Origin: a virus
Virus record (IMG/VR): IMGVR_UViG_3300045921_000010
Span: 1-43,325 of that record
Reading direction: 5' to 3' (one strand)
Length of the DNA: 43,325 nucleotides
Numbering within the stretch: position 1 is the stretch's first letter; every line of letters starts with the position of its first letter. Below are positions 9,804 through 39,312 of the stretch, piece by piece. The translations under genes and the position numbers were made by a program. The notes beneath the pieces are model-generated. The model had not been told where the DNA came from, ran no database searches, and saw only the letters and a list, made by a program, of their open reading frames with translations.

Positions 9804-12800
9804 TTAACCCCTATAACCAGTCTCACGGTTGTGCATATTAACACCACTTGCAATTTGAGGAAGCATTTCGTAAATTTGAGCCTTAGTCTGTCGACTTATA
9901 TCTCCAGTAATATTTATATTAATTACTTGTGAAGGTTCTCTTCTACTTGAACTTGATTCACTTATTGAAGCTATTGAAGGTCTAGAAACAAAACCACCTT
10001 CTGATAACTTAGAAATTGAACCGTTGTTTATACTAGACAGCAGTGGTCCGAATTTTCTAGCGGCCTTTGCATTTACTACAAACTCACCAACAGACAACAT
10101 TGCAGGTATTGAGTCTGATGTTGAAGTGCCAGGACCATTAACCCAACCACCAGTTGCAAACATTGAAAACAACCGTTTAGCACCGGAGATTACTGAGTCA
10201 AACATCCCTGCAAAATCAATCTTACCTAAAGCATCTGGTATTTTCTTAAACCAGGAAGCTATGTCTAAGCCATCAATAGCACTATTTATTGCTGAACCTG
10301 CTGTGTCTACTATTGTAGCAACACCTTCACCAAAGCCAACAAGCCCACCTTTCTTGGGTCTTGCTTCTTTAGTATCCTTGGCATCAGTAGTTTCATCTAA
10401 TGTTTTAAATAAAACAGCTGCGGCATCAGCTACAGGAGACGTCGTTGCAGTACTAGCATCAGCAGTTTTCTTCTTTTCACCACCGGCACCAAAAATGTCT
10501 TTTATAAACTTAGAGCCCAATCCAAAGATTTTAGCGCCAAAAGATTTCATGTTTTCCTGAATGCCTTGCCCTAATACAGACTCAGCCATACCTTCAACAA
10601 AGGCTTCTATAACATTCTTAGTGACATTATCCAGTATTCTATCAACATATGTCTTAGCAATACTCTTGTCTATGCCATTTGCGTCCTTATCAACTTCACC
10701 CTTAAAAGCACCCTTAGTAGACTCTTTAAAAGACTGTGTAATATTATTCCCAAAAGCTTCAGCTATCTCTGTCAGTTTGTCAGTCTTTAGCTTCTCAATA
10801 TCTCTTTTTATTCTTTTAGAAAGGGCATCAACTCTCTGTTGTGCTGCTATTCGAATACTTTCTACAGAAGACTCCGTTTCCATTCTAGCATCTTCAAGCT
10901 TGTTTAACATGTCATCAAAAGATTTCTGCTGTGCATCAGTAAGTTTATTATAGAAACTAATATCAACTATAGCATCAATCCCTGAAATTTTCTTTTCAAA
11001 GACTGCCCATGCGTATCTACCACCCAGTCCCTCGCCTGCACGTGCTTTTGCTTTTTCAACTTTGGCTTTAATTGCGTCAAGAGAGGCAGCAGCCATTTTC
11101 TTAGCATCGTCAGAACTATTATCTTCAAGAACTGTTTTGCTTTTCCTAAATTCTTGCTCTAAGTTAAGTACATAATTCTTAACGCTATCACTAAACAGTG
11201 CAAAAACAGCTTCAGAGATGCCAATTTCTGGGTCTTCTAAGAAATTCTTATTTTGATCAAATGTATTTCTAAAAGGTTTAAGCTGCGGGATAAGATTCGA
11301 TAACGCCGCTTTACGATTTGTCTCAATAGTAGCATATGCCTCAGTTGCTTTTAGGTTAGTCTCTGTCCCTAAAGGACCAATAGGTCTGTCGTTTAATTTA
11401 TTCAATTCAGCTTGGCTCTTGGCAGCTGCATTATACAAAGCATTTCTAATATCATCTGGTAACTTAAGGAATTTATCTTCAATAAGTCCTAGTTCTGGGA
11501 ATACATTTGAAACAGTATTGAATTGTTGTCCAAATTTCTCAATGTTACCTTCTTCTTTATCTTTACTATCAGTAGTTGCCTTCCAAGCGTCAACTTCACC
11601 AGATAAGACCATTTTACTAACAATATTCCCTAAATTATCACGACCTTCAGTAATCAATTTTCCAAGCATATTCTTCATAAACTCAGGTGTCGCTGGAGAC
11701 TTTCTTTCTCGCTCCAGTCTTCTAATATTGTCTAAAGCGTCTATCAAAGCTTGTTGACTACTTCCTTTGAGTTCTAAGATATCTTCGGCCTTTACACCTT
11801 CAATACCATTGTCTTTAAGAGTTTTTGCAAACACATTTGCATAGTCTTTTCCAGCTCGCTTTAATGTTGTTTGAAACGGTGTACTATCAACTTCACCAGT
11901 ACCACCGGTGGGTACTACAGGTTCTTTCCAACCTATGGCATTCTTAACCGATTGCATCAAGGTTGGCAATGCTGTACTAACAGCTGCTGATATTTTAGAA
12001 GCATCAAAAGACTTAATAGCCTCCCATATTTCACCAAAGGCACCTTTTGCGCTACTTGCAACGTGTACTTGTATTATATCTTTACTACGGCTAGGGTCTG
12101 CATACTCTTTGCCTTTCCAGATAGCATCCTTATTAACTGCACCACCATTTTGGAAAACAAGACCACCTTGGGCATATTTACCAACACCATTTATATATTC
12201 TAAAGTTTTCCTGTGCTTTGCCGCAGAGCGTGCATTTATTACAAACTCACCATTAGAAAGAAGCGCTGGAATAGAATCTGAAGTACCAGTCCCTTGTCCT
12301 CTAATCCATCCCCCTGAAGCAAATCTAGAAGCACTCTTAAATCCTTTATAGAGATTATTTGTTTTTTCTAATTCCAAAAGCTCTGCAGGTGAAATCCCAA
12401 AGTATTCTGAAGCATTATATGTTTTCGAAGTCTTCCAAGGTAAGAAAGATATCCAATTTCTTATGTAACTTATTTGGTCTTTTAACTTATTATTTTCAAA
12501 CAAACCTAATTGCTTAAGGGTGTCAATAGTTTGATTAGGCAGATCAGTTGGACGTATATTTTTAAGACCGTCTTCAATAGCTAGAATAGCCTTTGAGGCT
12601 TTCTTATTTATACCACCCTTTGTAAATTGTGAAATGTCAGAGAAATTTATATATAAGGAACGTGCTAAGGTAGGCAGTGGGTAGGCGTTTGAACTGTTTT
12701 GGTATGGAAGACGCGTATTCAGTATCTTTATTGGTGATTTTTCAGATGTAGTAACGCCATGCGCATAAGTATAAAATGCATTATAAGCGTCTTCTACCAT

Positions 12801-15800
12801 CCCTACTGCAGCTCTTGCAGCAGCCTGGAATGTTCCATCTTTCAAAGACCTCTTAATAAGTTCTGGATCTACGTTAAAAGGTTTGGTTTCACTAAAGCCT
12901 TCAAAACTTTTTGGATTGAAAGAATTAAATAAACCGCCCTTCGCGAACTTAGCTCCAACTATTTTAAAGTAGCTAGCAACAGTAGCATCTGTAACAGATC
13001 GCCACGGTAATGACTCTATTTTATTAGAAGCTTCCGTAGCTTCGCTTAAAAATTCAGGACTAGATAGCAATTCTTTCTTGAGACCGTCTGGTATCAGACT
13101 TTGTTCAGATATAGTCTTTGCTAATTGCTCTTTTGTAAGCTTGGCACTCTGGTTGCTCTTAAGACTTTTTAATTCAGAGATTGCATTGCTCTTGTAAGTA
13201 CCACCAGATGCTTTTACCTTATTTAGCAACTCTACAATGTGTGCAGCCGATGCATCCAAGAATGTGATACCATCACCCTTGGCAAATGGTAACTTAGAAT
13301 TGTATAAAGCACCCCAAGTGTCATAATCAGAAATGTCTGTATTATTTATAAAGCTATCTAAGTACTTATTTATATGCGATGCCCATGCAGTAAGATTCTT
13401 TGCAGAACGAAGCTTACTAAAAGGATTCACCATTTTTAATAATAAACTCTTAAAGTCACCTAAGTAGCCTTGGACATCTGCAGGAGGCATTACAACACCA
13501 CCCTTAGAAAACTTTTGAGCAGTATTTGCGTTTATTACGTACTCACCATTAGAAAGTAAGGCTGGAATTTTATCATCACGAGGCCCACCAGGTCCACGCA
13601 CCCAACCACCATTAGCATATTTTTGCGGGAAAATAAATGTCGAGTCTGAAGTGCTTGTCAAGGGCACAACATTCTTAAGATTTTGCTCAAATTGTTGTTT
13701 TAACTTTGCATTATGTTCTTTTCGAAGTCTGATCTCTTCAGCACGTTGCTTTTCTTCTTCCTCTATTTTCTTTTCTCTAATCGCCTGTTGAATTAGTAAG
13801 TTTTTATCCCAAGTAGCTAGACGTGAAAAGAAACCACTACTATCAAGATTTGCCTTTTCTGAAGCTAGTTGCTCTGGTGTTAGGGTACGGTAATAATCTA
13901 TATTACCCCTCCACTTAGAAATAAATTCTGTAAATGTTTCTTTGAGTTTAGATACTAAGTAAGTTGCACCAACTGTAATACCAGCGGCTAATAACACTGC
14001 ACCAATCTGCCCAATAAGCGGGAAAGCTGCAAGTAATGCAGGTATCCCTGCTATTAAAGCTGTTACAGATACCTTAAAGATAGTAAAAGCGGCACTTAAC
14101 GCTGCACCCGCCTTGGAGAAGAAAGCTAACAGACCGGATGTAACAAGTGCCTTACCTAACATAAATGCTGCACGATTAGCAAAGATACCCCCAAGTGCTG
14201 CAATAGGCGCCGTCAGGAGGCCAACAATACTAACTACAAAATTTGTTGCTAACAAGCCTAATGAAGCACCAATAAATTGTCCGACAAAAGACGTTGCAAG
14301 AGTGACACCAATTTTCTTCCAGGCTGGCTGGTTTTCCATACCTCTGGCAATTTCCATACCGACTTGAAAACCACCAACACCGCCTATGATACCGCCTAGA
14401 CCGGCGCCTATACCAATAAAACCTTGAGTAACAGCCGCTTTTGTTTCATTGAGTTTCTTGGTAAGACCAGTATAAGCCTCTTTTGCAGAATCTAATTTTT
14501 CATTTACAGCCTTTTGAGTCATCAGATGTTTGTTTAAGGACGCCTCGGCAATCTTGACAGAATCTTGCATAGACTTGACTTGAGACAGCAGTACAGCAGC
14601 AGGTAACCCTGTTGAGCTAGTTAAATTAGTAGCATCTTTCCTATTTGCACGAGACTGCAATTCACTAGGTCTTAAATTACGTGTAGTACCAATAGACGGG
14701 TCAAACACCTTTAAATTTCTACCGACATCAGCAGAAACTTTTCTTAAGTCATCTGCTGCAGCCTTTACAGATCTCTCTTGGCCCTTAACAACTTTGTCTA
14801 TTACATTTGCAGCATCTTTAGCATTATTGTAAACCATCTTCAAATACTTCTTATCGACAGTATGCTTCCAAACAGTATCGCTAACTATTGTAGGGGCTGA
14901 TAAAACACCTTTTATAACCTTCATCCACATCTCACGACCAGCTTGGAAGAGTAATAAAGTTTTAGCAATAAGACCAAGGAATGCAGCAGGATCGTCCCAA
15001 GCTTTCTTACCAGACAATAGTTTTGTAAAACCCATCTCAAAGATGTTCAGGATACTAAAAGCAATACGTTTGAAAAGATCTGATGTAGCTTCAGAGCCTA
15101 CGACCTTAACCATCGAGATAAGCAAAGCACTGCTAAATAAGCTGACTGCAACAGTTCTTACCATGCCTTCTGCCATTGCAGCTCTTAAAGCTAAAGTCAG
15201 ACCTGTTACAAGACCTAAGTAAATTGGTGCTCTAGCTTGCTCCGGAAACATTCCTATTGCATCATGTAAGAATGGTCTACTTTCTTTTTGGCGACGCACA
15301 CCTCGACCAACTTTAGCATTTGTGTCGATTGTCTCACCATAAATCTGTCCAGGATACTTATCCTGAATACCAAAGAATTGTTTTAAGTTTCTTGTAATAT
15401 TATTTGTATGAAACCACTTTTTAAAATCATCTGCGAATTTAGAAAGCTTATCATCAACAGTACCTTTTTGTGGTGCACCTAAATTAGTCTTCTTATTTTT
15501 AATTATTTCGTATGCAGCAATGCCACTTAAAGCGCCTAACCCGCCTAGAGCTAACCCCTTTAAGCCAGCCTTTAATAAGCTTAATTGTTTCAAGGCAAAA
15601 GTAAATGGTGCAACAACTGCTAACTTAGCAAAGAGCCCGTTTGCACTACCTACAAAGCTCTTGATAAATGCAAGAGGTGAACCTAATAATTTCTTAAGCC
15701 AAGCACCGACTTGAGTTACAAGGTCTGGTATCCATGAGTTACCAACAACTTTGTCATATAACCATTTAAACCAACCTTCTACAGCTCTAGCCCAACTCTT

Positions 15801-17027
15801 TACTTTTTCTAATATAGGTTTGAGACTATCAAAGAATTTGCCCATATTAATAGAGGGCATTTTAAGTTTGATACTATTCCAGACTTTAGTAAAAGTATCT
15901 CTAATCCACATAGCAGCATTACTTACTGCATTAGCAAATCTTTGGAATAAAGATGAGCTTGTTATAAAGTCTTTCAACTTCATAAAAGCATTGCCTAATG
16001 CATTTGCTGCAGTCTTTCCAAATGCTACAATTGCAGCACCTGCAGCTGCTAATTCTGGTTTAAGCTTTTCAAAGATGCTACCAAGCTTTTCTCCGATCTT
16101 ACTTAGAACTGTTTTTAATACTTGCCAAAGATTGGTAAAGAATTGAATGACATTGACAACAAACAATGCCGCCTTAACCTTGGCATTATATAAATGCAAT
16201 TCAAAGTTTAAAGCAAATTGCCCAATACTCATGGCAATTTTATTCAACCATGTTGCAATGTAACTACCAGAACCAAGAAAGGTTTTAACAACGGAGTCAT
16301 ATAGAAGCTTAAAAGAAGTTCCTAGATTTAGAAAAGCTTGTCCATACGTTATTTGCAGGTTAGAGAAAACGCTATCAAGTTTGTCTCCTTGCTTTAATAA
16401 GGCTTTTATAACGACAGGTGCGGTTAGCTTGCCTGCCTCACCTAATTCTTTCAGCTTTCCAATAGCAACACCTAAACCATCTGCTAATGCCTTTGCTAAT
16501 GCGCCATTGTTCTCTAACACAGAGCGCAACTCTTCACCGCTCAGCCTGTTAGAGCCAATTGCCTGCGCAAACTGTTGCATGGAACCTGCGGCTTCAGCAG
16601 CATTTGCACCGGAAATCTTTAAAGTCTTAGAAACAAGTTCTGTAACTCGAAGTGTTGATCTCTGGCTAATACCAATATCGTTGCTTACAAGAGCAATTCT
16701 ACCGTATAATCTTGCCACACTATCTAAGTCAGCTCTAGTATTTAAAGCGATTTCTTTAGTCCGATATAGTGCCCTCTCGAATTGCTTTTGTGTACTAGTA
16801 AGTGCTCGTAACTTATTTCCGTAATTTGTTAACTCATCGGAAATTTTAACAAAAGAATTAACAAGTACTCCGCCAGCAACCGCTAGCCCAATACTTCTAC
16901 CTATGGAAGCTAGTGATTTGGATGTATTATCTACCGAATTTTTTACATCATCTACAGAAGCTCTTAATTTAGATAGATCCTGTCTAGCTTGTGCGGAGTC
17001 AGATACTGTTTTTACTATCAGTGACAT
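9804..17027 (-). CDS. Tape measure protein
   Basis: 2407 residues, the longest gene here. The N terminus (about 60-220) matches the tape-measure N-terminal domain: LRALTSTQKQFERALYRTKE, then GEELRSVLENNGALAKALADGLG. Hydrophobic stretches that could enter membranes lie near 590-660 and 870-1040. Three copies of a Gly-rich motif (GGW-[VI]-x-G...IPALLSNGE[YF]VINA) occur at about 1136-1168, 1566-1598 and 2289-2321; such motifs recur in tape measures. At roughly 1.5 angstroms per residue, the usual rule, a tail near 360 nm is expected. I see no lysozyme or peptidase motif. It starts directly downstream of an intrinsic terminator, which may lower its dose relative to the major tail protein. Confidence 0.95.
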   Translation of the reverse strand: MSLIVKTVSDSAQARQDLSKLRASVDDVKNSVDNTSKSLASIGRSIGLAVAGGVLVNSFVKISDELTNYGNKLRALTSTQKQFERALYRTKEIALNTRADLDSVARLYGRIALVSNDIGISQRSTLRVTELVSKTLKISGANAAEAAGSMQQFAQAIGSNRLSGEELRSVLENNGALAKALADGLGVAIGKLKELGEAGKLTAPVVIKALLKQGDKLDSVFSNLQITYGQAFLNLGTSFKLLYDSVVKTFLGSGSYIATWLNKIAMSIGQFALNFELHLYNAKVKAALFVVNVIQFFTNLWQVLKTVLSKIGEKLGSIFEKLKPELAAAGAAIVAFGKTAANALGNAFMKLKDFITSSSLFQRFANAVSNAAMWIRDTFTKVWNSIKLKMPSINMGKFFDSLKPILEKVKSWARAVEGWFKWLYDKVVGNSWIPDLVTQVGAWLKKLLGSPLAFIKSFVGSANGLFAKLAVVAPFTFALKQLSLLKAGLKGLALGGLGALSGIAAYEIIKNKKTNLGAPQKGTVDDKLSKFADDFKKWFHTNNITRNLKQFFGIQDKYPGQIYGETIDTNAKVGRGVRRQKESRPFLHDAIGMFPEQARAPIYLGLVTGLTLALRAAMAEGMVRTVAVSLFSSALLISMVKVVGSEATSDLFKRIAFSILNIFEMGFTKLLSGKKAWDDPAAFLGLIAKTLLLFQAGREMWMKVIKGVLSAPTIVSDTVWKHTVDKKYLKMVYNNAKDAANVIDKVVKGQERSVKAAADDLRKVSADVGRNLKVFDPSIGTTRNLRPSELQSRANRKDATNLTSSTGLPAAVLLSQVKSMQDSVKIAEASLNKHLMTQKAVNEKLDSAKEAYTGLTKKLNETKAAVTQGFIGIGAGLGGIIGGVGGFQVGMEIARGMENQPAWKKIGVTLATSFVGQFIGASLGLLATNFVVSIVGLLTAPIAALGGIFANRAAFMLGKALVTSGLLAFFSKAGAALSAAFTIFKVSVTALIAGIPALLAAFPLIGQIGAVLLAAGITVGATYLVSKLKETFTEFISKWRGNIDYYRTLTPEQLASEKANLDSSGFFSRLATWDKNLLIQQAIREKKIEEEEKQRAEEIRLRKEHNAKLKQQFEQNLKNVVPLTSTSDSTFIFPQKYANGGWVRGPGGPRDDKIPALLSNGEYVINANTAQKFSKGGVVMPPADVQGYLGDFKSLLLKMVNPFSKLRSAKNLTAWASHINKYLDSFINNTDISDYDTWGALYNSKLPFAKGDGITFLDASAAHIVELLNKVKASGGTYKSNAISELKSLKSNQSAKLTKEQLAKTISEQSLIPDGLKKELLSSPEFLSEATEASNKIESLPWRSVTDATVASYFKIVGAKFAKGGLFNSFNPKSFEGFSETKPFNVDPELIKRSLKDGTFQAAARAAVGMVEDAYNAFYTYAHGVTTSEKSPIKILNTRLPYQNSSNAYPLPTLARSLYINFSDISQFTKGGINKKASKAILAIEDGLKNIRPTDLPNQTIDTLKQLGLFENNKLKDQISYIRNWISFLPWKTSKTYNASEYFGISPAELLELEKTNNLYKGFKSASRFASGGWIRGQGTGTSDSIPALLSNGEFVINARSAAKHRKTLEYINGVGKYAQGGLVFQNGGAVNKDAIWKGKEYADPSRSKDIIQVHVASSAKGAFGEIWEAIKSFDASKISAAVSTALPTLMQSVKNAIGWKEPVVPTGGTGEVDSTPFQTTLKRAGKDYANVFAKTLKDNGIEGVKAEDILELKGSSQQALIDALDNIRRLERERKSPATPEFMKNMLGKLITEGRDNLGNIVSKMVLSGEVDAWKATTDSKDKEEGNIEKFGQQFNTVSNVFPELGLIEDKFLKLPDDIRNALYNAAAKSQAELNKLNDRPIGPLGTETNLKATEAYATIETNRKAALSNLIPQLKPFRNTFDQNKNFLEDPEIGISEAVFALFSDSVKNYVLNLEQEFRKSKTVLEDNSSDDAKKMAAASLDAIKAKVEKAKARAGEGLGGRYAWAVFEKKISGIDAIVDISFYNKLTDAQQKSFDDMLNKLEDARMETESSVESIRIAAQQRVDALSKRIKRDIEKLKTDKLTEIAEAFGNNITQSFKESTKGAFKGEVDKDANGIDKSIAKTYVDRILDNVTKNVIEAFVEGMAESVLGQGIQENMKSFGAKIFGLGSKFIKDIFGAGGEKKKTADASTATTSPVADAAAVLFKTLDETTDAKDTKEARPKKGGLVGFGEGVATIVDTAGSAINSAIDGLDIASWFKKIPDALGKIDFAGMFDSVISGAKRLFSMFATGGWVNGPGTSTSDSIPAMLSVGEFVVNAKAARKFGPLLSSINNGSISKLSEGGFVSRPSIASISESSSSRREPSQVININITGDISRQTKAQIYEMLPQIASGVNMHNRETGYRG

Positions 17028-20164: not shown

Positions 20165-21352
20165 TTACGAATGGAAAACGGGAAGAATGCCTAACCCAAG
20201 TGCCGAAGTAGCCTTACGCTTCCAAATACCAGATGTAGACGCAAGTGTTCCGGAAACAACAGCAGTCAGAGCAACCTTATTTGTGGATTCCATTACGCTC
20301 ATGTAGTCAGCATTGGCCGGGAAAGCATCTTCTGGACCAGCCCAGTCATAGCCCGCCGGATGGAGCACATAACCCCAACGGTACCAAATCGACGTAGTAC
20401 CACCGCCCTTGTAAGCAGCAGCAGAACGATCAATTTCCGTAGGATCAGGGACAGCCAGAGGCTCCATCGCAAGAGCACCAGGAAGCACAATAAACGTAGT
20501 CTTTGTACCAACAATGTCAACACCAGCACCGGTATTGATCTTTGTAAATTCAGCACCAGACAGGCTCTGAGTAGCGCGTGTTTGAATAAGACGGAACTTG
20601 CCTTGGAACAACGTGTTAAATTCTACATTACCATCGACGACACGATCAGCATCAACGAGGTTAGCAGAACGGAACGACGCCATCATTTCAGGCGAGGTAA
20701 TCAGGTAGTAGTAAGGCGCTTCATAGTCCTTCCAGGCCATGCCGACAGCACGCAAGAAGCCTTCAGCTCTAGCAGCGCCTTGAACGCTGGAACTAGCATC
20801 AACAACAGCCTTAGAAGCACCAAGATCGACGTAGAAACCGTACTTGGGATCTGTAGGGTCGTTGTTGAAAGTTTGACCGCCAAGACCCGTAGCACCAGAA
20901 CCAGCAGCAGCGCCGTTCAGAAGTTCCGAAATAGCAACACCACGCAGAACAGCAAGAACAGCATCATGCTCATCCTGAGCGCGAGTCTCACCAAAGTCAC
21001 GACCAATCTTGGCAAGACCATCTTGCTGAGTGACCACTTGCTGCATGTTGATCTTGGTAGCACCATGCGTACGAACAGTCTTGATATACCGAAGGTATTC
21101 AGAACTGTATGTGGTCGTCGAACCAGCAGTAGAGTCTGTAAGAGATGCGACGTTGATAGTCGGGTTTAAAGGCTTAAACCAGCGCATCTGACCCATAAAG
21201 GTCTCAGTGCTAGTATCAATCTGCGGATTGCTACTTACAATACCGGTACCAGAAAGCTTCCTGGCAGTGGTGTAAGCTTCGTCCGAATAAGCATTCAGGG
21301 CTTCTTGCAGAACAAAGTTTGTAGCGCCTGCAAGGTTAGTCTTAACCGTCAT
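20165..21352 (-). CDS. Major capsid protein
   Basis: 395 residues. The composition (Ala, Gly, Thr rich, little Cys) and local GC content, higher than neighbours, fit a highly expressed coat protein. Segments consistent with an HK97-like fold include a long N-terminal region, RFGETRAQDEHDAVLAVLRGVAISELLNG-type spine helix (about 118-146), and PYYYLITSPEMMASFRSANLVD followed by a strand-rich P-domain. It directly follows the scaffold gene with an AGGA ribosome site. The specific coat family is not identified. Confidence 0.85.
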   Translation of the reverse strand: MTVKTNLAGATNFVLQEALNAYSDEAYTTARKLSGTGIVSSNPQIDTSTETFMGQMRWFKPLNPTINVASLTDSTAGSTTTYSSEYLRYIKTVRTHGATKINMQQVVTQQDGLAKIGRDFGETRAQDEHDAVLAVLRGVAISELLNGAAAGSGATGLGGQTFNNDPTDPKYGFYVDLGASKAVVDASSSVQGAARAEGFLRAVGMAWKDYEAPYYYLITSPEMMASFRSANLVDADRVVDGNVEFNTLFQGKFRLIQTRATQSLSGAEFTKINTGAGVDIVGTKTTFIVLPGALAMEPLAVPDPTEIDRSAAAYKGGGTTSIWYRWGYVLHPAGYDWAGPEDAFPANADYMSVMESTNKVALTAVVSGTLASTSGIWKRKATSALGLGILPVFHS

Positions 21353-21360
21353 TTAAAATC

Positions 21361-22038
21361 CTACCGTTTGTTTAATTTTCCTTCTGCAGCAAGTTTAAGA
21401 ACATCCTCTTGTTTCATAGTGAACAAGCTTCCTTTCTTACCGCCATCATCAGCAGACTTACCACCCGTATTTGTGCCTGACCCAGAAGAAATCTTTTGCT
21501 TTAGCAGAAAAGCATTGTCCTCATTAGATACAAAAGCTTGGACTAAGTCTGCGATAGGTCGCCCGTCCTTAGCAACCCACACATCCTGCTCGTTGCGTAC
21601 AAGGTTGCTCACAAGCTCTCTAAACGCCATTTCACGTGCGTTATCATTCCTGAACTCATGAGTATTAAGGGCATTCCGAAGACTCATATCGCGAGACAAT
21701 TCAAGATTTTGTTTCTTGAGAATGTCTTTTTCTTCTTCAGCTTGTTTTAGCCGAAGTGCGAGAGCTTCTTCTTTCTTGCCTTGCTCTTCTAAGCGCCGGA
21801 GTTCTTCGGCCTTTTTAAGTTCCTCTAACTCCTTATTACGCTTAAGTACCTCATCACGCTTACCGTAAGCTTCGTCTAACTTCTGTTTAATAGGCTTAAG
21901 CTTTTCTTCAGCCATTTTCTCGGCTAAAGCTTGAACAGCCTTTTTAGTATCAGCATCTAGCTTTTCAAGATCAAAGCCTTCATTGCTGTTACCACTGTTT
22001 TGACTGTCGTCATTGTTTTCGTCTGTGTTATCTGGCAT
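21361..22038 (-). CDS. Capsid scaffolding protein
   Basis: 225 residues. An acidic N terminus (PDNTDENNDDSQ) precedes a long charged coiled coil (about 28-115, rich in E, K, R, L) and a C-terminal basic tail ending KLAAEGKLNKR. This is the usual build of a siphoviral scaffold, whose C-terminal end contacts the coat protein. A strong GAGGAAATC ribosome site precedes the ATG. Two hairpins lie upstream in the gap after the MuF-polymerase gene and could protect or process the mRNA for high expression. Confidence 0.85.
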   Translation of the reverse strand: MPDNTDENNDDSQNSGNSNEGFDLEKLDADTKKAVQALAEKMAEEKLKPIKQKLDEAYGKRDEVLKRNKELEELKKAEELRRLEEQGKKEEALALRLKQAEEEKDILKKQNLELSRDMSLRNALNTHEFRNDNAREMAFRELVSNLVRNEQDVWVAKDGRPIADLVQAFVSNEDNAFLLKQKISSGSGTNTGGKSADDGGKKGSLFTMKQEDVLKLAAEGKLNKR

Positions 22039-22049
22039 GATTTCCTCGA

Positions 22050-22069
22050 GTACAACTCGTTAATTGTAC
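22050..22069 (-). other. Hairpin directly upstream of the scaffold gene
   Basis: GTACAA and TTGTAC form a perfect 6-bp stem with an eight-base loop in the minus transcript, ending a few bases before the scaffold ribosome binding site. It may be an mRNA stabiliser or processing site. Function inferred only from position. Confidence 0.35.
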
Positions 22070-22084
22070 AAAACATTTATTGGG

Positions 22085-22115
22085 CGTGGTCTATACGAAC
22101 TTCATATAGACCACG
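22085..22115 (-). other. 31-bp near-perfect palindrome between polymerase-fusion and scaffold genes
   Basis: CGTGGTCTATA and TATAGACCACG form a perfect 11-bp stem around a nine-base centre that itself reads as an inverted repeat (GAA-G-TTC). A T-G pair next to it makes the minus transcript pair slightly better than the plus. No T tract follows, so it is not a standard terminator. Candidates are an RNase III site, an mRNA 5' stabiliser for the capsid genes, or a protein-binding dyad. Confidence 0.5.
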
Positions 22116-22135
22116 GGTTAATAAAACGATATCAG

Positions 22136-25100
22136 TTAGCCCACACCATACCAACCATAGTCTTTTTGGAAGTCGAATTCTAACTCTTTAAGAATGTCTT
22201 CTTTAGTTAGAATATCTGAGTTTTTCAAAACCTTGTTACCTACTTTAGAAATACCAGGCACAGGTATAAGCCCCTTCTCAATGGCTTCTTCTAAATATTT
22301 TTCATATATGTCCTTAGGCAGACCTCTTGCACGCATCTCGTCAAGTGTCATTTTTACAACATTTTTATCTAGAGTCTCAGCATAGATTTCTCTAAGTGCT
22401 TGTCTAGCCTTTAACATATCTGTAGTATTTGTAAAGAAGGCATCATGAATGGTGGATGTGGGTATCTTATTTTTCTTACCCCATAGGTGAAATTTCTTTA
22501 CTAAGACGGCGTCATTAGAGTGATTACCGTTAACTGCATATGCGGTACGTGCTTTAGTAAGATCTGCAATATCATTTATTTTTCCGCTCTTGTTTGCCAT
22601 CTCTTCCCACCATGAGGAAGATGTCTTCTGCGGAATCTGGACGATATTTACCATCCATTCACCCTGGGCATTTTTATAGACTAATCTTTCTTCAAAACTC
22701 TGAGTAAAATTTTGTTCAATAATTTTACCATCAAAATTTATCCAGGGCACATTTGTCCATGCCTTAGGCAACTTGTTGGCATAGAACAATTCAATTTCCG
22801 AAAGCTTTTTCTCTTGGAAATAAATTCCTTTTGCCAAGTTTTCAAGCGTAGGCAAGGCTGGTGTAACAATTTCTACTTTTAGGAATTTACCACCTGTTCT
22901 ACGTGCTTCCGGAGATTTTACACCATATATAACTTCAGAAAGGGTTCCGTTAGGCACCCAAAATCCGAAGCGCTTTAAAAGCTTCTCAGAAACAGGTTCT
23001 CCACGTTTCAAACCTAAAATTCTGGAAGCCCAGTCTGGCAGTATATAACCTTTTTCTTTATTTCCTCGCAAAGCTATCTTACCAATACTTTTCCAATCGA
23101 AGTCCGCATTTGAGGGTTTTGCGTAAGCTAAATAATCTTGAGCAAGCCTACCAAAGTACCTGGTAAAATCTTTTAGAATTGGCACCTCTTCAGCAAGATG
23201 CTCACTCATAATCATAGCAACCTTTTTGAAATCATCAGGTGTAACAACTCTGTCATATGACATTGACATCTTTTCAAGTATATCTCTAGTTTTAGGGTCT
23301 AGGAACCATAACTGTTCCATAATCTCTTCACCGGGGTCTGCACCCTTATTAAAGATATCTCTAACGTTTTGTCGAAGTTGTCTGAGCTCTTCTGCTGTTT
23401 CAGGGTCAAATCGCTCATACATCGCCGCTCTGGCTGATATTTCATTTAGTACAATATCTCTATCTGACGCTTTAACAACTAATGTATTTGCATCTTTTCC
23501 TAAAATTTTACTTAATTTGCCTTCAACATTTAATGCTCCAGTCCTTTCACCAGCACCGTAGAACGTAACCATGTTCTGTGCTTTAGCCGCTTTTCTTAAA
23601 TCTTTTTCAGTAAGTCCTAATTTCTTGTTTATTTCTTTGAACTTTGGGTCTCTGAACGTTTTTCCAGCAATTTCGTCATAAAGTCTTTTCTTATATTCAG
23701 TAGGTATTACATTACTAAGCTCTGCAAGTTGTTTATTTTTTGTTGTCAATGCTATAATCTGAGCACCTGATGAAGATGCATCTTGCTCTAATGCTAGGCC
23801 AGTTTTATAACTATTAAGAGTTTCCAAAGCTTTCGGAGAATAATTACCTTTCAAATGATTATCAATCTTAGCCATTTCTAATGCTAATCTAAAAAACTTA
23901 CCTAAGTCTTCTCCATCAACATAACTAATCATATCATCTTCTAATATTGCTCGAATATCATTAGGCTTTCCACTAAGCATATGCCTCCCAATCTTGACCA
24001 GATTAGGTCGCCATTTAGCGGCGATCTTTTGACGTCCAGTAAAGCTTAAAGAGTTGTAATTACCTTCAAAGTGATCATTAAGACCACCTAAGAACGAACC
24101 TAACTGGTCTTGTAGATTGACAAAATCTATTTTACTAAAATTCTTTTCAACTTCTGTATTTAGGAATGGTCGAAATGTTTCACCTGATTGTGGTGATATA
24201 AGACCTCTGTCATAGATACGAGCTCTATGGTCTATAAAAGCATTATTACTAAATGCGGAATTTCTTTTTCGTAACCATTCCATTGCCTTTATACGCTCGT
24301 AGGAGTCACCACGAGAAGATATATACTTCTTATATGTATTTAAATTATCATAGAATTCGGCTTTACCTTTGTCATCTTTGAAGTACATAATTTTCTTAAT
24401 AAAGTCAAAGTAGTCGCCGTCAATTCTATATTTTGTTTGACTAGCCCAATTAAGGGCATCAGCAAATTCCTTATCAACAAATGTAGTAGGAAATTCACTG
24501 AAGCTAGAAGTAGATGTAATAGGTATCCTAGTATCTTCCCATCCAAGAATACCTCTATCCAAGAAATAGGTTTTATAACCTTCTCTTACATAAAGGCGAT
24601 TCTTATCATTGACGACAGGAACACGCATACCAAGATCAATGCTACGCTGTAACTTAGCATAGTCCATAATCTTGGGATCGGTGATCCTAATAAAATATGT
24701 TGTAGTATCATATTTAGGGCCAAAATAAGCTCCGCTCATGCGGCTTTTCATGCGCCTCTTCTGTACCCCGAACGTTTCAATCTTATAGTATTTGTTGACT
24801 CGGTCGCTTTCCAGTATAGCTTTACCAAGTTCAAACCATTCTCTTCTATTCCCATTATAATTGGCTAAATTATGTAAGTCTCTTCCAAGCTGCACAGCTA
24901 GCTGGTCAAAGTCAGGTCCTTCTGACATACAAAGTCTGTTTGCAAATTTAAGATAAAACTCTTGCAAGTCTCTATCACTAAGTCTCATCCAAACTTTAGG
25001 AGCGCTTTTTGCAATAGTTACGTCAAAAGTACTTCTTAGTTTAGAAGCAAGCTTTGGTGCCTCAGTATCTTCCCACTTATTCTTTGCTAAAACATTGTCT

Positions 25101-26824
25101 ACGAATTTATCATGCAACTCATCTAATTGTACAGGACCTAAGACTGGGTCAATATAGTTGCTGTCTAATAGTTTCTTGAGTATGTCTGAGTCCTTTCGAA
25201 GCTGTGTTTCCATAGCCTCTGAAATGTTCATAATATCAAACTTTAGCTGGGCTTGTGTAACAGCCTTAAAGTTACCCCACGGCTCTGGGTTACGTCTGTA
25301 TCTAGTGAAAAGTATTCTAAGGTTATCAATAATGACTGCTGTTTCATTCATGCCTATTTTAGTAGCCATGTCTAAAGAAAAGTCCTTAATAAATTTCTTA
25401 TCTCTATCTTTTAAGTCTACGGACTCATCAACGAGTCTTAAGGCGTTGTTGAACACTGCAGGATTAGGTTGATACATTCTTGCATCTTCATACCTATTTG
25501 TTATAGGATTGAATTTAATCTGGTCTTCTCTAGGCGGTGTAGTTAAAACACGTCTTTTCTGAGTTCTCTTAGTATTTAATAAAAGTCCTCGATAGTTTGT
25601 TAGCGAAAGATTACCGTCTAAGTCCTTTGATTGAAGTTTATAATATTCTTCTAGGTTCTTAACAAGTGTTGGATTATCGAAGAAGTCATCAGGTGTAGTT
25701 GCTGGAAGATGTAACGAATCTAGCTTTCTTTTAGCATTAGCAAAGCGCTGTACGTCACTAGCATGTGTGAATTCTGAATCTGTTAATTGTTTAAGTTCAT
25801 TAATACCTATAGCAACCCCTTCAGGTGTAGTAAATCTATCTAATGTAATTTGCTGTTTATTAAATAGTTCTACTTTACGCCAATCGCCAATATGCTTTAG
25901 CTTTACTTCCTCTGACTGACGTAATAGCCAATCGTTGTAAGGCTCTCTAAGAGGTGTCTGACCATCATAGAATGCCTTCTGGCTGTCAGTAAGCTTCTCA
26001 AGATTACGTCTTCGAATAGCTGATAGGTTTTCAAGTTCAGCTAAGTCAGACCAAGACTTAAATACAGGAACAGTTGTTGATCTACAGTTAAAATGTGCAG
26101 GCGGTAAATGAACATAGTCACCAATAGGAAAAATTTTACCGTCTCTATGAGCACAAATCCAAGTAGTTCTAGAATCAAGCACAGCTACATATTGATAGCC
26201 TCTTATTGCCTTTTTATTAGCTTCATAAACAGATTGATCAGCCTGGTTGACTACACTTGTTACACTAGTAACAACTAAAGCCCTAGCCTGATTCCTGGTG
26301 ATGTTATGAACGTTCCCTTGACGAACTTTTAATGCCATTTCATCTATAGACAAACCTTCAGCAATACCTTTCCGAATACTAGCTTCAATTCTTTTACGTT
26401 CATAAGCTCCAATGTTTTGCCAACCAATTTCTAGTGTCTTGTCACCGTACAAAGGACGCTTAAGAACGACTTCTTCTGCTAATCTGACTGATGGTCTTTC
26501 TGTCTTCCATACTTTACCATAAAGCACTTCAATATTCTGGTATGCGTAAGATACTTGATCTACAAACAAGTCTAACAGCGATCTGCTATGGACATTGAAG
26601 GCTTCTTTGTAATTTCTCAAGGTTAGCAACCTTAGCTCTTCCATCAGATCTTTGCGACCCTTGGCAGTAAGGTTGCTACTCTTCAATAGCTCTTGCACAT
26701 CAACTTCATGACCATCAATGATTAACGCAACCTTGTCATTAAGACGCCTTTCATAGAGGCGATTCATTGCTGCTCTATCAATTACTTTATCGTAGAGCTC
26801 GGTATTTGCGTTTATAGGTTTCAT
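22136..26824 (-). CDS. MuF head-morphogenesis domain fused to a single-subunit RNA polymerase
   Basis: 1562 residues. Residues about 80-256 form a MuF/SPP1-gp7 domain, ending in C224-A-H-R-D-G and PPAHFNCRSTTVP (241-253), the family signature. The remainder carries T7/N4-type polymerase motifs in order: D865-H-R-A-R-I-Y (T7 DWRGRVY); motif A D1015-A-S-S-S-G (T7 D537); motif B R1077-x3-K1081-x3-M1085-x3-Y1089-G (T7 R627, K631, M635, Y639); motif C H1460-D1461-A-F (T7 H811, D812). All catalytic residues are present. The gap between B and C (about 380 residues) is far longer than in T7 (about 180). The ATG overlaps the portal stop (TAATG). Inference: incorporated in the capsid through MuF and injected to transcribe early genes, as N4 vRNAP does. 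Confidence 0.9.
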   Translation of the reverse strand: MKPINANTELYDKVIDRAAMNRLYERRLNDKVALIIDGHEVDVQELLKSSNLTAKGRKDLMEELRLLTLRNYKEAFNVHSRSLLDLFVDQVSYAYQNIEVLYGKVWKTERPSVRLAEEVVLKRPLYGDKTLEIGWQNIGAYERKRIEASIRKGIAEGLSIDEMALKVRQGNVHNITRNQARALVVTSVTSVVNQADQSVYEANKKAIRGYQYVAVLDSRTTWICAHRDGKIFPIGDYVHLPPAHFNCRSTTVPVFKSWSDLAELENLSAIRRRNLEKLTDSQKAFYDGQTPLREPYNDWLLRQSEEVKLKHIGDWRKVELFNKQQITLDRFTTPEGVAIGINELKQLTDSEFTHASDVQRFANAKRKLDSLHLPATTPDDFFDNPTLVKNLEEYYKLQSKDLDGNLSLTNYRGLLLNTKRTQKRRVLTTPPREDQIKFNPITNRYEDARMYQPNPAVFNNALRLVDESVDLKDRDKKFIKDFSLDMATKIGMNETAVIIDNLRILFTRYRRNPEPWGNFKAVTQAQLKFDIMNISEAMETQLRKDSDILKKLLDSNYIDPVLGPVQLDELHDKFVDNVLAKNKWEDTEAPKLASKLRSTFDVTIAKSAPKVWMRLSDRDLQEFYLKFANRLCMSEGPDFDQLAVQLGRDLHNLANYNGNRREWFELGKAILESDRVNKYYKIETFGVQKRRMKSRMSGAYFGPKYDTTTYFIRITDPKIMDYAKLQRSIDLGMRVPVVNDKNRLYVREGYKTYFLDRGILGWEDTRIPITSTSSFSEFPTTFVDKEFADALNWASQTKYRIDGDYFDFIKKIMYFKDDKGKAEFYDNLNTYKKYISSRGDSYERIKAMEWLRKRNSAFSNNAFIDHRARIYDRGLISPQSGETFRPFLNTEVEKNFSKIDFVNLQDQLGSFLGGLNDHFEGNYNSLSFTGRQKIAAKWRPNLVKIGRHMLSGKPNDIRAILEDDMISYVDGEDLGKFFRLALEMAKIDNHLKGNYSPKALETLNSYKTGLALEQDASSSGAQIIALTTKNKQLAELSNVIPTEYKKRLYDEIAGKTFRDPKFKEINKKLGLTEKDLRKAAKAQNMVTFYGAGERTGALNVEGKLSKILGKDANTLVVKASDRDIVLNEISARAAMYERFDPETAEELRQLRQNVRDIFNKGADPGEEIMEQLWFLDPKTRDILEKMSMSYDRVVTPDDFKKVAMIMSEHLAEEVPILKDFTRYFGRLAQDYLAYAKPSNADFDWKSIGKIALRGNKEKGYILPDWASRILGLKRGEPVSEKLLKRFGFWVPNGTLSEVIYGVKSPEARRTGGKFLKVEIVTPALPTLENLAKGIYFQEKKLSEIELFYANKLPKAWTNVPWINFDGKIIEQNFTQSFEERLVYKNAQGEWMVNIVQIPQKTSSSWWEEMANKSGKINDIADLTKARTAYAVNGNHSNDAVLVKKFHLWGKKNKIPTSTIHDAFFTNTTDMLKARQALREIYAETLDKNVVKMTLDEMRARGLPKDIYEKYLEEAIEKGLIPVPGISKVGNKVLKNSDILTKEDILKELEFDFQKDYGWYGVG

Positions 26825-28419
26825 TACATCACATCTTTCCGTGTAAGGTTAGTATTTTCAAGTTTCTTCAAATAGGAAACTTGTTTAGATTCTACAGTAA
26901 AGACATTCCTATCTTCTTCGTTAATTTCTTTAATGCCATCTTCATCGTTATACTCTGACTTAAGCATATCATTTCTTTTAAGAATTTCCAGCCATGCACT
27001 TCTTGGAATAAGGCTTTGTTGGTACCATTCGGTAGCAAGACGCAGCCAGTCAGCACCAAGTGGGGTATGATCGAAGTCTTCAGACAATGTAAACGATACT
27101 TCATCATCAAAGAATTCAATGTCATATCGCCATCTAAGCATGAATGCTATGACTTGAGCGATAGTAGAGCTAACACGGTTATTAAGTAAGCCAAGACGAG
27201 CTGTTTGAGAGGCATTACGTAGCTGTAATGCAATTCCTGACTGTCCAGCTTCAGGACTCAACATACGAATACCTAATTTAGCAAGCTCTTCAATATTAGC
27301 AGCAATTGCTTTTTCCATATTTGCTAGCGCGTCAGTAGGTGTAGCAAGAATGGTAGCCTTACAACCTGCAGGTATGTTCAACCAAGAACCAAGACCTGAA
27401 TCTACGATTGCTTGAAATTGGTCATCTGAAAGATCTCCTTCAATAACTGGCGTATACGTGGAAGCACCATACAGAAGGTGATTACGTCGGCTGGTCTTAT
27501 TATAAAGAGCGCATTCTTTGTCCATAATAGCGCCTAAGATAGGCTCTACTGGATCAATATAGCCATTCAAAGGCCATGCAGGAATCATATCAAGGCGAGC
27601 TCCATGCATTAGAATATTCTTGTTAGGAGACGTTAAGTCTTCAACAAGTTGGGATCTGTTAGCCTCATTATTAACCTTTTGACCGTTAACAAATTTAGGA
27701 GTATTAGTAGCTTTGGCTTCCTTAAAGGTTCTTACTTGATAGTAACCTTCTTCGTCAAGCTCATGTACATACACGTACATGACGTATTCTGGATGGTACT
27801 TTCCTTCTGGAATTTCTTCAATAAATTCTTTAAGAATAACTCGAGTCAGGACTGTCTTACCATTCTTATTTTTACCTGTCTGCCAGTTAATAACAGATTC
27901 CGCAGGCCAAATTACAGGATATGGCTTAATATTCTTACGCTCTTCTGGAGTAAGTTCTTCAGCATTATCAACGACAGGATGATCAACAAAGACCCATGCG
28001 CGGCTTGTAATGATTTCTTCGTTAAGAATTTGATCTAGAAATGAAACCAATGAAGTATCGTCTCTGTTGAAAGACTTTTGAATCCAGTCTGATGCTTCAT
28101 CGGGGATTTTGTCAGGAAGCTTTATAATAGGGGGCTTTCTAAGAAGACCACCTACTAGCATTTTAGAGAATTCAGCTGAGATCCCAGGAAATTCTGCTTC
28201 TGCTTTATAAAAATTGTACTGCTCTTGCGTCATTCTTGGAGAGAAGGGAATAAGGATATTAGTATAAGAGATCACATCTAGAGCACCGTCATAAGCTTTT
28301 ACATACTTCTCTCCAGAACAAATAGCACGAGCTCTCTCCCATAATGGTTTAAGAGTTTCGTAAGAAGCACAGGGATCTGCTACTGTCTTCCCTTGTGGAG
28401 AAGCATTAGCTACGGCCAT
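26824..28419 (-). CDS. Portal protein (DUF4055-type)
   Basis: 531 residues. The N-terminal third, with AYDGALDVISYTNILIPFSPRMTQEQYNFYKAEAEFPGISAEFSKMLVGGLLRKPP split over about 42-97, matches the DUF4055 portal pattern (a conserved aromatic-rich segment, then a GLxxRKPP turn). Later GIRMLSPEAGQSGIALQLRNASQTARL (about 390-416) fits the long portal helix region. The portal forms the dodecameric DNA channel. It is coupled to the MuF-polymerase gene by a TAATG overlap, which supports co-assembly of the two at the capsid vertex. Confidence 0.85.
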   Translation of the reverse strand: MAVANASPQGKTVADPCASYETLKPLWERARAICSGEKYVKAYDGALDVISYTNILIPFSPRMTQEQYNFYKAEAEFPGISAEFSKMLVGGLLRKPPIIKLPDKIPDEASDWIQKSFNRDDTSLVSFLDQILNEEIITSRAWVFVDHPVVDNAEELTPEERKNIKPYPVIWPAESVINWQTGKNKNGKTVLTRVILKEFIEEIPEGKYHPEYVMYVYVHELDEEGYYQVRTFKEAKATNTPKFVNGQKVNNEANRSQLVEDLTSPNKNILMHGARLDMIPAWPLNGYIDPVEPILGAIMDKECALYNKTSRRNHLLYGASTYTPVIEGDLSDDQFQAIVDSGLGSWLNIPAGCKATILATPTDALANMEKAIAANIEELAKLGIRMLSPEAGQSGIALQLRNASQTARLGLLNNRVSSTIAQVIAFMLRWRYDIEFFDDEVSFTLSEDFDHTPLGADWLRLATEWYQQSLIPRSAWLEILKRNDMLKSEYNDEDGIKEINEEDRNVFTVESKQVSYLKKLENTNLTRKDVM

Positions 28420-29359: not shown

Positions 29360-29385
29360 AAGGCTCCTTTATTAATTCGTTTCAT
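29356..29385 (-). CDS. Nine-codon linking micro-ORF (MKRINKGAL)
   Basis: ATG at 29385 overlaps the stop of the 927-residue fibre gene (ATGA) and its own TGA overlaps the ATG of the 83-residue gene (ATGA). Its codons AAT AAA GGA encode the ribosome binding site for the next gene. It closely resembles MKKIINKESL before terL. Probably a translational relay; a functional peptide is unlikely. Confidence 0.5.
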   Translation of the reverse strand: MKRINKGAL

Positions 29386-37809: not shown

Positions 37810-39312
37810 TTAAAAAGTCTTCCCAGTTCTAACCTTAGCATCTCTACTAATAGGGAAGAGATATTCAGTAGCATATCTAACTCCGTCTGAATAATGTTCT
37901 ATTCCTTCGGATTTATCTATAATAGCCGTCTCTGGCTTATCTTCTACCCAACGGGTTCTCTCAATCGAGGTAATTAAGTTCTTACATCTAGGATGAAATC
38001 TCATAGAGACCTTCCCACTAGCTGTCTTAAGCTTTCTATTAACACATGTCACAGAATCTTTAATAGGTGGGCTGGATTGTCTTGCTAATACTTGTATACC
38101 ATACTCTGAAAGAATACTAAAGTCTGTTCTACCGACAGGCGCAGAAGACTTTCTAGCCTTACCTGTAGGATCTGGAAATGCATAAATCACATGTCCTTTA
38201 TATTTCTCTGTAATATACTTAGCAAGATTTTCTGTATCAGGGTGTCCTTTAGTTTCGTCTATAAATTCCATATCTCCATTTCTTAGTGCAAAGAAAGAAG
38301 TAGCCTGGATACCCACATTAAAGTCAATACAGCAGTAAACATCTTCACCACACAATTCAGGATGATTTTTAAGCCATTCTCTATTAGCACTAGATCTTAC
38401 ATCTCTATTTTTAGCGGCCTCTTTAGGAGGAGCAAAGTCAGCAACTACTGTTACATGCTCTTTTCTATTAAAACAATAAAAGACATTGTTACCAGATTCT
38501 GTAAAGGAAGCTAAATATTCAGAGGCAAACTCAAAAGGATCCATTGTATCACGATCTTTCTCAATTTCGCTAATACTAAGAAGAGGAGATTGTTTATAGT
38601 CATATGTAAAAGAACGCCAATCTTTATCTGTATCAGCGTTACAGTAAAGATCATAAAAGAAATCATAACCATCAGGTGTGCCTATAAACATAGCTCTACC
38701 AGCATTGGGAGCATTGAATATTTTAGCACGTTGTTCTGACCACCGTGTTGTTATACACGGCTTAATAATTCTATTCCAAGCCTCTTTAGGCTTCATACCA
38801 CTCTTACAAGAGGCTACTTCGTCCCATATGACTAGGTATGCACCCTTACCACGCATTCTCTCTACAGCTTCGTATGATAGTAATTTAAGTGTAGAATTGT
38901 TTTGGAAGATTAATCTTCCTTTATCTTTAAGAGACTTAATAGCTAAATCTTCTAAGCCTAATTCTATAGATAATAAAGGCCAATAGATATCCATAACCTG
39001 GTCATATGTAGGCCCAATTATATAGACATCTTTATTAGGTACTCTAACATCAAGCTCTAATAATTCCATAATACCTGCTTTAGCTATGTTAGCAGCAAGA
39101 AAAGATTTACCAAAGCCTCTAGAGCAACAGACGGTTATAAATTTACATGTCTTATCTATAAGGAATGTTTCATAGATATTGGATTGATTAGGGTGAAGAT
39201 TAACAGTGTAAGTATGTTCATCTTCTATATTAAGAGTATTAAAATCATCATTAGAGTTACTTATTAATTTTCCATCTTCTATAATATCATCATAATCATT
39301 ATACAACTTCAT
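37810..39312 (-). CDS. terL: Terminase large subunit
   Basis: 500 residues. Walker A-like C-S-R-G-F-G-K69-S70 and Walker B VIWD164-E165 mark the packaging ATPase, with a following FIGTPDG coupling motif (209-215). The C-terminal nuclease domain supplies D330 (CCIDFN), D381 (AFPDP) and D476 (HYSDGVRYATEY), a normal RNase H-like triad. It cuts and pumps DNA into the prohead through the portal. Its ATG is reached through two identical 10-codon micro-ORFs, each overlapping the next by ATGA. It is followed by the lysis-like cassette rather than by the portal. Confidence 0.95.
   Translation of the reverse strand: MKLYNDYDDIIEDGKLISNSNDDFNTLNIEDEHTYTVNLHPNQSNIYETFLIDKTCKFITVCCSRGFGKSFLAANIAKAGIMELLELDVRVPNKDVYIIGPTYDQVMDIYWPLLSIELGLEDLAIKSLKDKGRLIFQNNSTLKLLSYEAVERMRGKGAYLVIWDEVASCKSGMKPKEAWNRIIKPCITTRWSEQRAKIFNAPNAGRAMFIGTPDGYDFFYDLYCNADTDKDWRSFTYDYKQSPLLSISEIEKDRDTMDPFEFASEYLASFTESGNNVFYCFNRKEHVTVVADFAPPKEAAKNRDVRSSANREWLKNHPELCGEDVYCCIDFNVGIQATSFFALRNGDMEFIDETKGHPDTENLAKYITEKYKGHVIYAFPDPTGKARKSSAPVGRTDFSILSEYGIQVLARQSSPPIKDSVTCVNRKLKTASGKVSMRFHPRCKNLITSIERTRWVEDKPETAIIDKSEGIEHYSDGVRYATEYLFPISRDAKVRTGKTF

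Follow-up and report, generated by a model that had tools for sequence, protein, structure and literature searches.

Introduction

In phage N4 (Schitoviridae) a single-subunit RNA polymerase (RNAP), gp50, enters the cell together with the DNA and starts early transcription, and the phage encodes another RNAP besides. The crAss-like phages are also thought to carry an RNAP in the virion, in their case an enzyme of another fold that is related to the multi-subunit polymerases. T7 RNAP is free of any head-protein fusion; the infected cell makes it once its gene has been transcribed by host RNAP. The N4 virion RNAP (vRNAP), 3500 aa long, has an injection region at its N-terminus and an encapsidation/metallopeptidase region at its C-terminus (PMC5512222). 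MuF proteins occur in phage heads as minor components, and when fused to enzymes they are seen as effectors that enter the host along with the DNA; the enzyme partners that a survey of the family names include PBECR RNase, 2H and RelA/SpoT domains, and no polymerase was found among them (PMC5512222).

The locus described here joins a MuF head protein and a single-subunit RNAP in the same protein. By family membership it combines two known parts, a MuF protein at the N-terminus and a T7/mitochondrial-type RNAP at the C-terminus. The initial annotation knew of no account of such an architecture, and no description was found in the open literature, where an earlier mention is nevertheless possible.

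The MuF–RNAP gene and its surroundings

The window, meaning the whole stretch of DNA analysed, is a 43,325-base IMG/VR record. Its minus strand carries an open reading frame of 1562 codons (22136–26824, as first reported) encoding 1562 aa, in which the MuF and polymerase parts share a single frame that neither a stop nor a frameshift interrupts, in line with the original proposal. The gene's first base coincides with the final one of the portal gene (26824), and the scaffold and then the major capsid genes come next (Table 1), so that the portal and scaffold neighbours originally named are borne out by their PHROGs families. This slot between portal and scaffold/capsid recurs in the roseophage DSS3_VP1, and it is the one in which SPP1 gp7 and Mu gpF carry their MuF module. 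The families detected from portal to capsid in this window include no maturation protease. Assignment to a long-tailed siphovirus is likewise upheld by a set of long-tail genes comprising tape measure, distal tail protein, tail terminator and J-like central fibre. Elsewhere in the window (29382–32165, minus strand) lies the gene of a 927-aa protein with degenerate S/T/A-rich repeats of the SSTG-ISQVH type.

Table 1. Features of the MuF–RNAP locus, in window coordinates
Feature	Position	Strand	Basis or remark
Central tail fibre J-like protein	1444..8616	-	phrog_31 4.3e-24
Tail tape measure protein, 2407 aa (long tail)	9804..17027	-	phrog_17300 5.2e-64
Major capsid protein	20165..21352	-	phrog_247 3.2e-17
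Head scaffolding protein	21361..22038	-	phrog_206 2.8e-7
UGU-triloop hairpin CGAGT-TGT-ACTCG, just before scaffold ribosome-binding site	22047..22059	-	
Degenerate copy CGTTTTATTAACC of promoter-like box CCCGTTAAATTAACCC, right after MuF–RNAP stop	22116..22128	-	
MuF–RNAP fusion gene	22136..26824	-	1562 aa, uninterrupted reading frame
Single-subunit RNAP module, residues ~486–1562	22139..25369	-	AF2, Foldseek, phrog_414, PF00940
Motif C, H1460-D1461-A-F1463 (T7 H811/D812/F814)	22436..22447	-	120/120; T7-aligned
N1432-G-N-H1435-S-N-D1438 (T7 N781/H784)	22511..22531	-	conservation; T7-aligned
Motif B, R1077-x3-K1081-x3-M1085-x3-Y1089-G1090 (T7 R627/K631/M635/Y639)	23555..23596	-	T7 equivalence by spacing
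Motif A, E1013-Q-D1015-A-S-S-S-G1020 (T7 D537)	23765..23788	-	invariant; T7-aligned
D865-x-R-x-R (D865-H-R-A-R; T7 D421/R423/R425)	24218..24232	-	120/120 invariant; T7-aligned
Head-morphogenesis (minor head protein) module, residues 4–485	25370..26815	-	phrog_241 1e-63, phrog_115 3.7e-26
MuF core domain PF04233, residues 145–251	26072..26392	-	Pfam; 7 invariant residues in 120/120
Portal protein, directly upstream, 1-nt overlap	26824..28419	-	phrog_145 2.1e-62
Terminase large subunit	37810..39312	-	phrog_2 8e-30

The N-terminal part belongs to the MuF/SPP1 gp7 minor head proteins, both by its position between portal and scaffold/capsid and by the PF04233 domain (2.7e-15 and 57.5 bits, above the Pfam cut-off of 29.6). 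The MuF domain was thus placed correctly, although the head module does not end near residue 256 as first supposed, its PHROGs matches reaching ~485. Conservation was assessed in 120 fusions, chosen as full-length, including the window and extending down to ~31% identity, and among these seven residues of the MuF domain (D217, T220, C224, P242, H244, C247, R248) are unchanged throughout. The N-terminal module yielded a good AlphaFold2 model (pLDDT 85.5), for which a Foldseek search of the PDB with residues 1–393 gave no significant match.

The polymerase module

The remainder of the protein belongs to the single-subunit (T7/mitochondrial) RNAPs, with a PF00940 match in two stretches at residues 1408–1501 (2.3e-10 and 40.3 bits, Pfam cut-off 22), a match to phrog_414 (RNA polymerase, 2.4e-20 in a PHROGs search) at residues ~1003–1097, and the motifs D-x-R-x-R, A, B and C following one another in order. 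An AlphaFold2 model of residues 365–1562, built with 67 sequences, reached pLDDT 85.5 and pTM 0.81 and contains the right-hand palm/fingers fold that the initial annotation had suggested looking for. Compared by Foldseek with the PDB, the model gave 74 matches below 0.001, the best being human mitochondrial RNAP (POLRMT, 3.9e-17) and T7 RNAP (5.6e-17), enzymes of the same fold and motif order. The TM-scores (~0.35–0.39 by query, 0.57 at most by PDB target) are compatible with a predicted common core and large differences outside it. In BFVD the model matched A0A7S5FRK7 (6e-66), whose 1463 aa equal the length of the DSS3_VP1 fusion, as well as many phage RNAPs, the N4-type virion RNAPs among them from ~1e-13.

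At the level of sequence the relationship becomes visible through profiles. While phmmer of the whole protein against the PDB gave chance matches only, the family profile found T7 RNAP in motif order among PDB sequences (4e-4) and aligned to it by hhalign over 453 columns (2e-9). This alignment pairs T7 D421/R423/R425 with D865/R867/R869, D537 with D1015, N781/H784 with N1432/H1435 and H811/D812/F814 with H1460/D1461/F1463; motif B is left unpaired, and its assignment rests on exact T7 spacing and on its place between A and C. Against N4 vRNAP residues 998–2103, taken as a single sequence, hhalign gave a probability of 0.1% and an E-value of 0.39, and the match of the fusion to phrog_2166 (N4-like RNAP) is weak (E 0.022). 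Of the earlier designation as a T7/N4 polymerase, the T7/mitochondrial half therefore stands and the N4 half is not borne out by sequence.

All motifs originally listed, namely D865-x-R-x-R, D1015-x-S-x-S-G, R1077/K1081/M1085/Y1089-G with T7 spacing and HD1461-x-F, are present. Eighteen of the residues compared are invariant in 120/120 fusions: D865, R867 and R869, E1013, D1015, S1017, S1019 and G1020, K1081, Y1089 and G1090, N1432, H1435, N1437 and D1438, and H1460, D1461 and F1463. The motifs are thus no product of chance, M1085 (kept in 119/120) and R1077 being the exceptions to this invariance. At R1077, the position of T7 R627, arginine occurs in 54 members, alanine in 62, glutamine in three and threonine in one, so that catalysis may differ in detail in the roughly half of members with alanine. 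This variability, together with the distance of the sequence from T7 and the modest Pfam score, could be read as the mark of a catalytically dead module that plugs the head as a DNA-binding or structural element, a reading that we regard as very unlikely given that the fold is complete and the metal-binding aspartates and other tested motif residues do not vary in 120 of 120 members. As judged from motifs and model, the polymerase module is complete, of T7/mitochondrial type, and predicted to be catalytic.

Relatives and distribution

When 50,697 phage records were searched by tblastn, four covered no less than 80% of the protein: EBPR siphovirus 1 (58% identity) and three records of the roseophages DSS3_VP1 and DSS3_PM1 (Naomviridae, 31%), all of which encode the same fusion under the GenBank names ‘head protein’, ‘minor head protein-like’ or ‘head morphogenesis’. 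Relatives of the query, itself carrying both PF04233 and PF00940, were encoded in at least 511 and at least 522 IMG/VR stretches in two profile-guided scans, so that the search for the same fusion elsewhere proposed at the outset gave a positive answer. A large, mostly uncultured group of long-tailed phages, as delineated by these searches, carries the MuF–RNAP fusion.

That the fusion is an assembly chimera, or an annotation error joining two genes, might be thought from a single locus (L083) that is frameshifted near residue 450. However, over 100 contigs assembled independently of one another share the fusion, as do DSS3_VP1 and DSS3_PM1, a recurrence that refutes an artefact for all practical purposes. 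Among 80 IMG/VR loci (the matches listed), split members number four, three with introns and the one with the frameshift, which is most likely an error. As L083 is the sole case of apparently separate MuF and RNAP genes, an arrangement of two separate genes was rejected.

Two of the introns lie within motif B, between V1086 and T1087. One is a group I intron of EBPR siphovirus 1 (L001:11179–12039) that contains an HNH gene and scores 40.5 bits, below the Rfam gathering score of 50, and through which the fusion came to be annotated as two genes; the other (L084:5278–6412) scores 76.3 bits. A third group I intron (L061:14213–14935, 56.3 bits) is inserted at G1433/N1434, beside N1432–H1435. The positions of these introns inside or beside catalytic motifs, with the frame resuming afterwards, are as expected of a gene that is kept functional.

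Prophage carriers were sought in a genome collection with two conserved peptides. The only matches were a 74-kb viral contig and a fragment, both in one MAG, which, as far as this two-peptide scan reaches, points to mostly lytic phages. The two sequences (L085/L086), a 74-kb phage contig of the group and a fragment of another, are binned in a ‘Gammaproteobacteria bacterium’ MAG (JAOUJT01), probably as misbinned virus and possibly as a hint of the host.

A second RNA polymerase and promoter-like boxes

PF00940 was also searched in 16 large related contigs, all of which contain the fusion. In 15 of them a separate T7-like RNAP gene is present, with a stronger PF00940 match than that of the fusion (best E per contig 5e-33 to 4e-87) and ~14–50 kb away from it; the remaining contig (G016), a 40-kb fragment, has the fusion only. 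The stand-alone frames are mostly of 720–770 aa, some being interrupted, longer or cut by the contig end, and the stand-alone enzyme is plainly T7-like by hhalign (2.7e-54). DSS3_VP1 likewise has a stand-alone RNAP besides its fusion, annotated as ‘RNA polymerase’. A recent duplication of the fusion as the source of the stand-alone enzyme was considered and rejected, the fusion profile being nearer to T7 (2e-9) than to the stand-alone enzymes (1.3e-3). Following the stand-alone gene, five genomes of the window's cluster encode homologues of the DSS3_VP1 DNA polymerase, itself noted as T7-like, 5'-3' exonuclease and primase/helicase, so these phages combine a siphovirus head and tail with a T7-like replication and transcription set and with a head protein that incorporates a polymerase. 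The early region is missing from the 43-kb window, which is a fragment, and we infer the second polymerase of its phage from these relatives.

The same five genomes have in common a box with consensus CCCGTTAAATTAACCC, present in 4–7 pattern copies per genome that are mostly intergenic. Coding-strand matches number 26 against 1 on the other strand, with 0 in 10 simulated genomes for each. The box follows the stop codon of the fusion in 37/53 window-cluster loci; it is found at the late/early junction upstream of the stand-alone RNAP in 5/5 genomes (the copy in G001 departing from the strict pattern), and after the stand-alone RNAP in four. Judged by sequence pattern and placement, it may be a putative promoter of either phage RNAP. 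At the late/early junction the copies are followed by a CCTCCCC-like stretch. An early promoter specific to the MuF–RNAP was not identified.

Proposed role of the fusion

We consider it likely that the fusion is a virion-borne RNAP, made late, packaged in the head, ejected with the DNA and then transcribing early genes that include the second RNAP. It would be made with the structural proteins and brought into the procapsid by its MuF part, residues 1 to ~485 placing the polymerase inside the head near the portal, a packaging role that we infer from the MuF family. It would then pass down the long tail together with the DNA, presumably in an unfolded state, refold in the cell and transcribe the early genes, the stand-alone T7-like RNAP among them, which in turn would drive later genes. 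When a phage that already has one polymerase encodes another among its late genes, the latter is best understood as cargo destined for the next infection, and a virion-RNAP lifestyle predicts the second RNAP found in 15 of the 16 contigs. Points against this role are that a polymerase of ~1070 aa would have to unfold in order to pass the long tail, that no early promoter specific to the fusion was identified, and that R1077 varies.

The late block in which the gene lies, and the promoter-like boxes placed right after it and before scaffold and capsid, would also suit a polymerase acting late in the producing cell. Its attachment to MuF would then couple its dose to head assembly, or be a by-product of gene fusion, and the enzyme would be cleaved off or left behind rather than injected. 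Such a late role is conceivable, but the second RNAP of 15/16 contigs could already serve it, and no maturation protease is found among the portal–capsid families of the window. Moreover, the fusion is kept in 120/120 members across wide divergence (though these were chosen as full-length), and the 80 listed loci are split only by three introns and one frameshift. We therefore hold a late-acting polymerase to be unlikely. T7 uses polymerases for transcription-coupled DNA entry, and a packaged and injected polymerase might similarly have as its main job the internalisation of the genome by transcription, or else the priming of replication. The anatomy would be identical to that of the virion-borne RNAP proposed above, and either job is compatible with early transcription; no specific evidence for them was found, and as the main function we think them improbable.

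The layout of the fusion phages, with an RNAP among late structural genes and another RNAP elsewhere, is also that of N4, and by this analogy the fusion probably works like N4 vRNAP. It is not of N4 type, for its sequence does not align detectably to the N4 polymerase domain, whereas T7 aligns at 2e-9, and it lacks HExxH, the protein ending with the polymerase module. In place of a 3500-aa protein in a short-tailed phage, we find a 1562-aa protein with an N-terminal MuF carrier among long-tail genes. DNA-hairpin promoters of the N4 type were not identified, the triloop hairpins that were found being concentrated before the scaffold gene. T7 RNAP, unlike the MuF–RNAP, lacks a head-protein fusion, and the crAss-like enzyme, likewise thought to be virion-carried, differs in having no MuF part and another polymerase fold. 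On balance we lean towards the broader view that this lineage starts transcription without host RNAP by ejecting a MuF-anchored T7-type RNAP through a long tail. This would be an N4-like strategy of independent origin, in which both the polymerase and the packaging module differ from those of N4 and later genes are served by a second T7-like RNAP.

If this is true, it would add a further design of virion-borne transcription, seemingly independent of N4, and would mean that a long flexible tail allows the delivery of a polymerase. RNAP would become a further MuF partner, which agrees with MuF being a general adaptor for protein delivery, and the gene that hundreds of environmental phages carry under the label ‘minor head protein’ would gain a testable function, directly so in DSS3_VP1, an isolated roseophage. 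In Naomviridae DNA deoxyuridine replaces thymidine (PMC12697855), and an early polymerase of their own could help these phages to read it. Deoxyuridine DNA was rejected as a common reason for a virion RNAP; a dCTP deaminase homologue is found in only one of the five window-cluster genomes, so it cannot be the general one.

Probable RNA structures around the scaffold gene and other repeated elements

UGU-triloop hairpins occur in the scaffold leader of 92/111 loci, one to three in each; the two clusters have 26 and 35 different stems, respectively. More generally, tandem triloop hairpins with stems of 5–8 bp and 3-nt loops are concentrated in this leader, and where a stem has a single mismatch it is G.T in 38/53 cases (72%), compared with 16/254 (6%) in controls. 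Both the location and the G.T mismatches make the hairpins look like RNA structures rather than DNA promoters; the UGU-triloop hairpins are thus probably an RNA element, and perhaps a candidate translational operator.

In the window a long hairpin, CGTGGTCTATA...TATAGACCACG (22085–22115, minus strand), lies directly after the promoter-like box and before the scaffold gene; it might resemble a terminator or serve in processing. Members of the DSS3-type cluster have TTTGTAATAGCC after the MuF–RNAP stop and again, inverted, ~800–870 nt downstream (L120:14369 and 15171), with similar pairs in L103, L099, L142, L131 and L154; the pair seems to flank the scaffold gene and may perhaps form an RNA processing stem. 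Finally, DSS3_VP1 has a repeated motif around ACGATAGGGTGCGTTAAAGAG, at L187:12549 and at four approximate sites in the right half of the genome, which is a candidate promoter of its cluster.
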